Source: Candidatus Levyibacteriota bacterium | Lineage (GTDB): Bacteria > Patescibacteriota > Microgenomatia > Levybacterales > UBA12049 | DNA length: 48,083 nt | Assembly: GCA_016217835.1 (NCBI GenBank) | Contig: JACRFQ010000014.1 | Span: forward strand, 1-48,083 | Direction: 5' to 3' | Position numbers and translations under genes: made by a program | Shown here: one piece after another, positions 37,647 through 41,398 of the stretch | Position numbering within the stretch: the first letter of the stretch is position 1 | How the letters are laid out: every line of letters begins with the position of its first letter | Notes under the pieces: model-generated | The model's input: the letters and a program-made list of their open reading frames with translations, nothing else | Told to the model about the DNA's origin: nothing | Database searches by the model: none

Positions 37647-38789
37647 TCAAGCTCCAAGAAGCCATTTAAAAAATGTTTTTGAAGACTTATTAATATTGTT
37701 AAGTATTGAATTAAAGTTATTTTTATTCTTGAACTCTTTTGTTTTGTAAACAAATTGCAAACCTGAAAAGTCAAAAACGTCTTTTGAAAGCAAGGGTTGT
37801 CCTCTGACTTTTAAAATGCTTTTATAAGTATTATAAATTTTAGTTTTTTGTCCGCTTTTTATAAATGAAAATTGAGCAAACGGGCCTTTATCTGCTATAA
37901 AAATGAATGGCGTAACCGCTATTACGCTTGGATCATTCCAATAACTCCTGAAAGCGTCTTGATAATAAATAGATTGCTGATCTTGTGAAATTGTGTCCGA
38001 TGTCCAACCTGTTTCGGTTATAAATACAGGTATATCTTTACCCGATAAATTGTCTGCGATATTTTTTTGATAAAAAAAACTAAATACTCCGTTTTTGGTA
38101 CTTGATGGGGGAGATGAAAACGCGGGATTTGGGTACGAATGGCTTCCGATTCCGTCAATCTTTGCAAAAATTCCAGGTACAGCATCTTCCATTTGATACA
38201 TATAGTCGTATTGATTAATATATCTATCGGTAACATTTATCGAAGCATTATCAAATCCTGCAGAAATTATAAAAAAATCTTGATTTTTATTTTTAAATTC
38301 ATCAATTGCATAATTTAAAATTTCTGCGTATTCAGCCGCGTTTGGTATCCCACCCCATTCGTCTCCTCTATTAACTTCGTTATAAACTATAATGTACCTA
38401 TTTTTAGTAGGCCAGCTTAAAGAATTTAAAAAATTAGAAAAATCTAAAATATCATAATTAGATGGTTTTGCCCACGAAATTTTATCAAAGTAATCACCAT
38501 CTGTTGCAAGTCGAATTATTGGAATAACATGATATTTTTTAGCGTTATTCATAAAAGTCTGCCATTTATCAAGGTCTCTGTCGGATGCCCTGATTGGAAT
38601 TGTTACATATCCCCAATCACCGCCAGATGAATTAATAAGAGCAGCGGCTTCGCTAATTTCTTCGGGAAACAAAATATGAATACCGAATTTATTGTTATCG
38701 ACAGAGCGGGGATCGTAAATTGCGTAAGATTTTTGAATAGAAAACAATAAAAATATAATAAATGTTATTAAAAATATTAATTTTTTCAT
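37647..38789 (-). CDS. Secreted/membrane-anchored TIM-barrel glycoside hydrolase-like protein
   Basis: Signal/TM N-term; YIIVYNEVNRGDEWGG and VFITETGWTSDTI (candidate catalytic Glu pair), GIGSHSYPNPAF. Confidence 0.65.
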   Translation of the reverse strand: MKKLIFLITFIIFLLFSIQKSYAIYDPRSVDNNKFGIHILFPEEISEAAALINSSGGDWGYVTIPIRASDRDLDKWQTFMNNAKKYHVIPIIRLATDGDYFDKISWAKPSNYDILDFSNFLNSLSWPTKNRYIIVYNEVNRGDEWGGIPNAAEYAEILNYAIDEFKNKNQDFFIISAGFDNASINVTDRYINQYDYMYQMEDAVPGIFAKIDGIGSHSYPNPAFSSPPSSTKNGVFSFFYQKNIADNLSGKDIPVFITETGWTSDTISQDQQSIYYQDAFRSYWNDPSVIAVTPFIFIADKGPFAQFSFIKSGQKTKIYNTYKSILKVRGQPLLSKDVFDFSGLQFVYKTKEFKNKNNFNSILNNINKSSKTFFKWLLGA

Positions 38790-38826
38790 CAGCAAAGGAT
38801 ATTTTACATCAAAAGTAGAATATTTG

Positions 38827-39720: not shown

Positions 39721-40680
39721 ATGTTAATCGATGAAGCAAAAATTATTGTTAAAGCGGGTAAAGGCGGTAATGGCGCGTCGAGCTTTAAAAGAAATGCGCA
39801 AACCGCAAAAGGCGGACCGGACGGAGGAAACGGCGGTAATGGGGGAAATGTATATTTTTGCGGCATAAATGATATCACGGCGCTTTCCGAATTTACTTAC
39901 AAAAAAAAGATATCGGCCGAAGACGGGATAAAAGGCGGAAAGCAAAACCTTTATGGCAGGAATGGAAAAGATACAGTCGTATTTTTACCGATTGGGACAT
40001 TCGTTACAGATTTAGATACGAATAAGACTTTTGAAATTTTAAATACACAGGATAAAATTTTGATTGTAAAAGGCGGAAAAGGCGGTAGGGGAAATAATGA
40101 GTTTAAATCAGCAACACAGCAAACACCTTATTACGCGGAAAAAGGGTTACCGGGGGAAGAAAAAAAACTTTTATTAGTTCTTAAACTGATTGCAGACATA
40201 GGGCTTATCGGACTTCCGAACTCAGGCAAAAGCAGTCTTTTGAGTGTTTTAACCAGGGCTCATCCAAAAATTGGAGATTATCCGTTTACTACATTGGAGC
40301 CCAATTTAGGAGTTTTGAGTAGTATTGTAATCGCAGATATTCCAGGTCTTATTGAAGGCGCATCTGACGGCAAAGGACTGGGGATTAAGTTTTTAAAACA
40401 TATCGAAAAGACAAAAGTATTAGTTCATTGCATAGATATTCAATCACAAGATTTACCAAAAGATTATGAAATTGTTAGGAAAGAGCTAATTCAATATGAT
40501 AATAAGTTAAATGAAAAAACAGAAATTATACTTTTAACAAAGTCAGATTTATTATCAAAAAAAGAAGTTAATCAAAAATTGAAAGTAGCAAAAAAATTAA
40601 ATTATAATTCTTTTACAATGTCTATTTATAATGATAAAGAACTTTCCAGCCTCACCGAATTATTAATAAACATAAAATAG
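39721..40680 (+). CDS. obg: Obg family GTPase
   Basis: Gly-rich N-term GKGGNGASSFKRNAQTAKGGPDGGNGGNGGNVYF; GLPNSGKSSLLSVLTRAHPKIGDYPFTTLEPNLG; DIPGLIEGASDGKGLGIKFLKHIEK. Confidence 0.97.
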   Translation: MLIDEAKIIVKAGKGGNGASSFKRNAQTAKGGPDGGNGGNGGNVYFCGINDITALSEFTYKKKISAEDGIKGGKQNLYGRNGKDTVVFLPIGTFVTDLDTNKTFEILNTQDKILIVKGGKGGRGNNEFKSATQQTPYYAEKGLPGEEKKLLLVLKLIADIGLIGLPNSGKSSLLSVLTRAHPKIGDYPFTTLEPNLGVLSSIVIADIPGLIEGASDGKGLGIKFLKHIEKTKVLVHCIDIQSQDLPKDYEIVRKELIQYDNKLNEKTEIILLTKSDLLSKKEVNQKLKVAKKLNYNSFTMSIYNDKELSSLTELLINIK

Positions 40681-40684
40681 CCGC

Positions 40685-40766
40685 AAAAAAACCCCTTGCG
40701 GGGTCTTTTCGGGGCATACTCTTGCGAGTATTTCCTGCCTTTTTGATACTTGCGTATCTGAAGGTA
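40685..40766 (-). ncRNA. Predicted structured small RNA with three GCAA-capped hairpins and intrinsic terminator
   Basis: Promoter TTGACA (complement of 40796-40801) -17- TAAAAT (complement of 40773-40778); hairpins GAUAC-GCAA-GUAUC, AUACUC-GCAA-GAGUAU, ACCCC-GCAA-GGGGU followed by U6-7. Confidence 0.6.
40691..40704. terminator. Intrinsic terminator, probably bidirectional (obg / minus-strand RNA)
   Basis: ACCCC-TTGC-GGGGT flanked by A7 upstream and TCTTTTC downstream on the plus strand. Confidence 0.75.
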
Positions 40767-40868
40767 AGAAGCATTTTATATTATATTTCAGCTTCTGTCA
40801 ATAGGGTAAAAATAGGTCAAAAGGAGTCAATATTGGCATATATGTACTTTAAGCACGTAACAGCATGA

Positions 40869-41138
40869 CTAATTGTAAACTTCATCATGAGTCCCTATTT
40901 TGATAAAATAAGCTTTGTCTTCGCTTAATAATTTGTATACCATTCGTATACTCATTATGATTGAAATACTCCACAAATTATTCATACTCGAATTAAGTTT
41001 ATGTGTACGTAAAGACGGATGTTTGAGATTTATGCTAAATAAATATAGTTGCTTTTGGATTCTTGAAGATAGTTTTACATTTTTTTGTTTTATCTTTTTG
41101 AGGTCTTTTACTACTTCCGGAGAAAGTTTAATATGCAT
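40869..41138 (-). CDS. RelE/YafQ-type toxin
   Basis: SPEVVKDLKKIKQKN...HPSLRTHKLNSSMNNLWSISIIMSIRMVYKLLSEDKAYFIKIGTHDEVY. Confidence 0.85.
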   Translation of the reverse strand: MHIKLSPEVVKDLKKIKQKNVKLSSRIQKQLYLFSINLKHPSLRTHKLNSSMNNLWSISIIMSIRMVYKLLSEDKAYFIKIGTHDEVYN

Positions 41139-41140
41139 GA

Positions 41141-41398
41141 TTATAAATTTTTGAAAAATTCGTTAACGTTATCAATATCAATAGCTTCATCAATATGCTC
41201 CATTGCTTCTCTTGCGGCCTTTTCCGTGACAGTAGATGCTTTAAAAATAGGATATTCTTCATCTTTAACCTCGTCTATAATAAGATGTTTCACTAATTGA
41301 GTTATAGGAACACCCAGACGTTCAGCTTTAGATTTTAGTAAATCACCTAATTGTTGGGAAATGCTTACTCTGATTTGTATTTGTCCGCTATCTATCAT
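41141..41398 (-). CDS. Antitoxin of the RelE-type pair (RHH-like)
   Basis: IQIRVSISQQLGDLLKSKAERLGVPITQLVKHLIIDEV plus an acidic C-term; 2 nt from the toxin ORF. Confidence 0.75.
   Translation of the reverse strand: MIDSGQIQIRVSISQQLGDLLKSKAERLGVPITQLVKHLIIDEVKDEEYPIFKASTVTEKAAREAMEHIDEAIDIDNVNEFFKNL

Follow-up and report, generated by a model that had tools for sequence, protein, structure and literature searches.

A conserved three-hairpin small RNA with a predicted promoter and intrinsic terminator in uncultured Levybacteria

Small RNAs of the RsaE and FsrA type are C-rich, trans-acting regulators of Firmicutes that carry anti-Shine-Dalgarno sequences and end at intrinsic terminators, and several of them work without a strict requirement for Hfq. 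The RNA described here resembles them in having its own promoter, a small size, hairpins followed by an intrinsic terminator, and a C/U-rich stretch that is similar to an anti-Shine-Dalgarno sequence. It differs in that no covariance relation was found through Rfam, and in that its CU stretch occupies the extreme 5' end, where it is part of a weak stem. With CsrB/CsrC and RsmY/RsmZ it shares a hairpin array, a purine motif containing GGA, and a terminator. However, those RNAs present several GGA motifs in their loops, whereas this one has a single GGA outside the loops, and the 11 genomes searched among those that carry it gave no CsrA. It is a new small-RNA family of a general kind that is already known. 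Our search of the literature for small or structured RNAs of the CPR, Patescibacteria, Microgenomates, or Levybacteria returned no relevant paper, most subscription journals being outside the search. Bacteria of the candidate phyla radiation have tiny genomes and are mostly uncultured, and the RNA gives a searchable handle on RNA regulation in this group: it covaries and has its own promoter in 24 species-level genomes, with Hfq (21 carriers tested) and CsrA (11 tested) not found. The covariance model can be deposited and used to search metatranscriptomes.

The locus and the predicted fold

The window, by which we mean the whole stretch of 48,083 nucleotides that was analysed, comes from a Candidatus Levyibacteriota bacterium and holds the RNA on its minus strand (Table 1). 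Both neighbours named in the initial annotation, the convergent obg gene and an upstream RelE-type toxin gene, were confirmed by their profiles, the latter just below the cut-off. The promoter was also present as described, with 17 nt between its -35 and -10 elements, both of which are conserved in relatives. The RNA probably starts at the A of ACCUU and ends in the U-run of the terminator. The region from 40680 to 40770 folds with a minimum free energy of -40.5 kcal/mol, compared with a shuffle mean of -18.6 (z = -6.9), and none of 200 shuffles was as good. All three stems of the window copy close with a C-G pair over GCAA, as had been reported, and the proposed extension of hairpin 1 is found in the fold as P1. 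A candidate toxin-antitoxin pair (40869-41398), with a weakly CopG-like antitoxin and on the same strand as the RNA, lies directly upstream of the RNA promoter; the loci read in relatives had no such pair at the corresponding position.

Table 1. Positions of the RNA, its elements, and its neighbours in the window, and loci of the three cousin types
Feature	Position or loci	Strand	Basis or remark
Upstream stretch of direct repeats, TTGAC-type (ATATTGACTCCTTTTGACCTATTTTTACCCTATTGACA); final repeat forms the -35	40796-40833	minus	Sequence; repeats recur before relatives' copies
-35 element TTGACA	40796-40801	minus	Sequence; kept in nearly all 25 full-length copies
-10 element TAAAAT	40773-40778	minus	Sequence; TATAAT-like in relatives
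Small RNA ACCTTCAGATACGCAAGTATCAAAAAGGCAGGAAATACTCGCAAGAGTATGCCCCGAAAAGACCCCGCAAGGGGTTTTTTT, ~81 nt	40685-40765	minus	Covariance model, 25 full-length copies; fold z -6.9
5' stem P1 (CCUU/AAGG) around hairpin 1	40738-40765	minus	Fold; 94.6% of P1 cells paired over 25 copies
Hairpin 1, GAUAC-GCAA-GUAUC	40745-40758	minus	Two-sided changes in 5/5 pairs
Linker 1, AAGGCAGGAAA, purine-rich, largely unpaired, conserved	40731-40741	minus	Per-column conservation
Hairpin 2, AUACUC-GCAA-GAGUAU	40716-40731	minus	Two-sided changes in 6/6 modelled pairs; sequence varies, fold kept
Hairpin 3, intrinsic terminator, GACCCC-GCAA-GGGGU + U-run	40685-40709	minus	Sequence; most conserved part of the family
obg	39721-40680	plus, convergent to RNA	PF01018
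RelE/ParE-superfamily (ParE/YafQ-type) toxin-like gene	40869-41138	minus, upstream	PF05016, E 1.8e-4, just under curated cut-off
Predicted secreted protein, 382 aa (AIYDPRSVDNNKFGIHILFPEE..., AIYDPxSxPNNKFGIHI...)	37647-38795
Type C RNA	L123, L125, L126, L132, L134, L138, L143, L144, L147		Family f5; in the window's family, G003 and G026
Type D RNA (AAUAGUCGAGAACGCAAGUUUUCGAUCAGAGAUACUAGCAAUAGUAAAUCGG...)	L122, L124, L127-L131, L133		Family f19; two copies in some genomes
Type E RNA	L135-L137, L139, L140, L145, L146, L148		Two- to three-hairpin GNRA RNAs

The view that the RNA matches no known family is borne out by Rfam 15, which at the gathering threshold returned five tRNAs from the window and nothing at the RNA. 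With E-values allowed up to 10, the best match was tsr26 on the opposite strand, at 18.3 bits compared with a gathering score of 141. Relatives and cousins yielded tRNAs only, apart from one TPP riboswitch adjoining a copy. This riboswitch match scores 63.8 bits, above gathering, and is found in G061, shortly downstream of that genome's RNA copy (L037 1337-1448, minus strand). The window's genome holds a single copy, the next best match (E 0.18) being the antisense of the same place, and this one copy rules out a terminator element scattered through the genome, which the initial annotation had named as a finding that would refute its proposal.

Conservation and covariation

A DNA search of 60 relatives gave matches in 13 genomes, and nearly all of the aligned copies have the promoter, three hairpins, and the terminator. 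Covariance models were built from 13 copies and later from 25. The covariance search located 25 full-length copies, each scoring at least 61 bits, spread over 24 of the order's 82 genomes; these differ in completeness, and failure to find a copy in a genome does not prove that it lacks one. When 287 genomes from across the phylum were searched, strong full-length matches were restricted to this order. A DNA pattern applied independently to GTDB genomes picked out 14 contigs (11 titled Levybacteria or Levyibacteriota, 2 Patescibacteria group bacterium, and 1 bacterium); the same pattern had 0 matches in viral contigs, on which ground a viral origin was rejected. Judged by these searches, the RNA unit is maintained across many genera of one Patescibacteria order and is known so far only in uncultured Levybacteria. 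One genome, G021, has two copies about 860 nt apart (L085; C7:153725-153814 and 154588-154682), one of them without GCAGGA.

Standard pairs fill 94.7% of cells over the 25 copies, two-sided changes occur in 15 of the 23 pairs, and the cells with such changes number 67, compared with a maximum of 16 when partners are slid by 1 to 3 columns and a shuffle mean of 17; fitting this alignment to the structure of the model biases the result towards that structure, and several copies come from closely related genera, so that the changes counted cannot be taken as independent events. A plain MAFFT alignment of 13 copies gave the same result in weaker form (27 two-sided cells, with a maximum of 6 after sliding), and RNAalifold predicted the same helices from the 25-copy alignment. 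The fold is retained across copies because compensatory changes keep the pairing. Conservation and covariation among relatives, which the initial annotation had said should be sought, are both present, and along with the single genomic copy they support its proposal of a novel small structured RNA that carries both a promoter and a terminator of its own.

The elements of the RNA vary to different degrees. The stem of hairpin 2 is the most variable (top-base fraction 0.61-0.68), although almost every copy caps it with GCAA. Linkers 1 and 2 stand at 0.83-0.84, and linker 1 together with the loops of hairpin 2 and the terminator (0.83-0.98) is more conserved than this stem. The loop of hairpin 1 is GCAA, GUAA, or GAAA and in one copy UUCG (C(UUCG)G in L040), while that of hairpin 2 is GCAA, rarely GAAA or GUAA, with a larger loop in L035. 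Because of the CUUCGG of L040 and the larger loop of L035, loop identity itself cannot be called conserved. The three identical loops that had been thought unlikely to arise by chance are real in the window copy, but relatives show a preference for GNRA rather than an invariant signal, and the sequences suggest that the GCAA caps serve as stabilisers.

There are two arrangements of the linkers. In variant A, hairpins 1 and 2 are joined by AGGCAGGAG and hairpin 2 is followed by CCCCGAAAAGA; variant B (L021, L030-L032) has sequences like GGGUAGAGA and CGGCAGGAAGA at the respective places. The motif GCAGGA precedes hairpin 2 in most copies, follows it in variant B, and is absent from a few; in three of the four variant-B copies it has been relocated rather than lost. 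The changing place and occasional absence of the motif weigh against the favoured explanation given below. A second CCCC had been put forward as an alternative partner for the GGGG of the terminator. This pairing is not conserved, the first CCCC being absent from variant-B copies, and a CCCC/GGGG switch was rejected since variant B does not retain it.

Possible modes of action

The element is very probably a standalone conserved sRNA gene. By its sequence, it has the promoter and terminator of its own that are expected of an intrinsically terminated sRNA of this kind, and it appears to lie outside the leader of any neighbour. Transcription would begin at the conserved ACCUY from a sigma-70-type promoter, and the repeats ahead of the -35 point to possible control by a DNA-binding regulator. 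Hairpins 1 and 2 would act as scaffolds that stabilise the RNA and expose two segments, the 5' ACCUY strand and the purine-rich linker, whose sequence is AGGCAGGAG or close to it. These segments could make short trans contacts with mRNAs in a manner that needs neither Hfq nor CsrA. The ACCUY strand resembles an anti-Shine-Dalgarno sequence and would be held in a weak stem of 3-4 bp by the AGG of the linker; opening of this stem could allow ribosome-binding sites to be masked. We hold this explanation as a whole, a free-standing regulatory sRNA with hairpin scaffolds and trans contacts, to be evenly balanced between right and wrong. Action in trans on RNA, taken alone, is a real possibility that falls a little short of even, and the ACCUY/AGG anti-Shine-Dalgarno detail is improbable. 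The 3' end of the genome's 16S sequence is canonical. Shine-Dalgarno sequences precede 5 of 42 first ATGs in the window versus 7 of 140 internal ATGs, and because their use looks weak, the anti-Shine-Dalgarno idea is only a suggestion.

Searches for partners of the RNA bear on this scheme. Hfq (PF17209) was not found in 21 carrier genomes and was detected in five control genomes, and an Hfq-dependent sRNA was rejected on this evidence. CsrA (PF02599) was not found in 11 carriers (G000, G007, G011, G012, G017, G018, G021, G022, G037, G039, and G041); in 40 relatives the sole match was in G043, which is without a full-length copy of the RNA, and controls were positive. The antisense of linker 1, TCCTGCCTTT, was read at 60 places in 16 carrier genomes and did not gather near start codons. 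These places were mostly on the antisense strand of frames or within genes, with three intergenic; no start site recurred, which speaks against the linker-1 antisense as a target seed. Duplex energies of the RNA with the mRNA of a neighbouring secreted protein were mostly within the control range and surpassed those of every other start in 3 of the 15 genomes. Pairing with this mRNA was not consistently better than with other starts and is disfavoured.

Ranked close behind trans-acting base-pairing, and somewhat unlikely in itself, is the possibility that the RNA binds protein. Its hairpins would expose the linker of AGGCAGGA type for recognition by an RNA-binding protein specific to the lineage, leading either to sequestration, as CsrB and RsmY do with CsrA, or to a small RNP. 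Consistent with such a role are a conserved purine motif, short and framed by rigid hairpins, that persists although its place relative to hairpin 2 shifts, the negative antisense-target tests, and the near-consensus promoter elements, which suggest abundance. However, the protein families searched for were not found, CsrA in the window's genome and ten other carriers and Hfq in any of 21, and each RNA has one GGA motif. CsrA sponges carry many GGA motifs, and a CsrA sponge in particular was rejected given that no CsrA was found in the 11 carriers searched, the single AGGA in a linker, and the GNRA loops.

Base-pairing in trans also has to be set against three readings that tie the element to its neighbours or to translation. 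A leader or attenuator of the downstream gene, with hairpin 3 as a conditional terminator, is suggested by L088, L098, and L151, where a same-strand gene begins 50-150 nt past the terminator. The immediate downstream gene varies, though, being a convergent obg in six genomes including the window's, other convergent genes in the f2 family, and various same-strand genes elsewhere, and because of this a leader role for one gene is unlikely. The terminator is moreover conserved more strongly than any other part, and the copies showed no conserved pairing that could act as an antiterminator; the convergent genes largely refute a leader, which we consider highly unlikely. The position between convergent genes and the well-conserved terminator stem would also suit a bidirectional terminator shared by obg and the toxin operon and nothing else, but it is preceded by a promoter and a pair of covarying hairpins, all kept in genomes that have no convergent gene there, which refutes this reading as a full explanation and makes it more improbable still, although the RNA's terminator may help to terminate obg too. 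Least credible of all is an mRNA for a tiny protein with AGGAG as its ribosome-binding site. AGGAG or AGGAA is found in linker 1 of many copies and a 40-aa frame overlaps the RNA in the window, but copies differ in length by 1-2 nt, neither an open frame nor a start codon after AGGAG is conserved among them, and the stems covary.

Gene neighbourhood, promoter repeats, and cousin RNAs

Fifteen copies from the window's family sit no more than about 2 kb ahead of a gene that encodes a predicted secreted protein, and a mechanosensitive-channel-like gene often flanks the RNA on its other side. The protein has no relative by sequence in Pfam, NCBIfam, or the PDB, and its gene is widely conserved beside the RNA; this common neighbourhood may be inherited gene order only. 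In many copies, TTTTGNYMTA-like units are spaced about 10-11 bp apart upstream of the -35. The strict repeat pattern followed by TTGAC was found in 758 kb of DNA only before these RNAs and one type-E RNA (see below). Of 32 RNA promoters, a set that counts some loci more than once, 20 have at least one unit no further than 45 nt from the -35, versus 10 of 112 other promoter-like sites. A related pattern applied to 32 genomes mostly returned RNA promoters; the remaining matches were coding or unremarkable DNA, an mraZ-type promoter, and single chance-like sites, and a promoter-repeat regulon was rejected for that reason. A regulator dedicated to the RNA promoter is plausible from this arrangement.

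Outside the order, matches at E-values up to 0.001 among 374 genomes of the class were confined to families f5 and f19. These are promoter-hairpins-terminator RNAs of three other types, C, D, and E (Table 1). Like the window's RNA, they have GNRA-capped hairpins, a near-consensus promoter, and an intrinsic terminator, but they reach only 34-59 bits and have other stems and linkers. Weak matches of this sort could come from GNRA hairpins and a terminator alone, in RNAs of separate descent. Type E shares two further features with the window's RNA. Eight genomes, seven from f5 plus G043 from the window's own order, have it immediately downstream of the same secreted-protein gene, and in four genomes (L135, L139, L140, and L145) it has similar TTTTGNYMTA-like repeats upstream. 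The broadest interpretation would be a larger class of GNRA-hairpin-array RNAs, with repeat-controlled promoters and GCAA terminators, in several families of one Patescibacteria class, repeatedly beside the same secreted-protein gene and under one lineage-specific transcription factor. Working without Hfq or CsrA, these would form a small-RNA system of ultra-small bacteria, a proposal that we consider doubtful. Rfam had no match to type C in the two loci scanned (L125 and L132). The type C RNA (AAUAGCUCUAUGGCGCAAGCUGUAGGGUUAGAGGAAUUCUAGCAAUAGAAUCUCUUGGG...) is a near-identical three-hairpin GCAA RNA with a promoter and terminator that appears in differing gene contexts.
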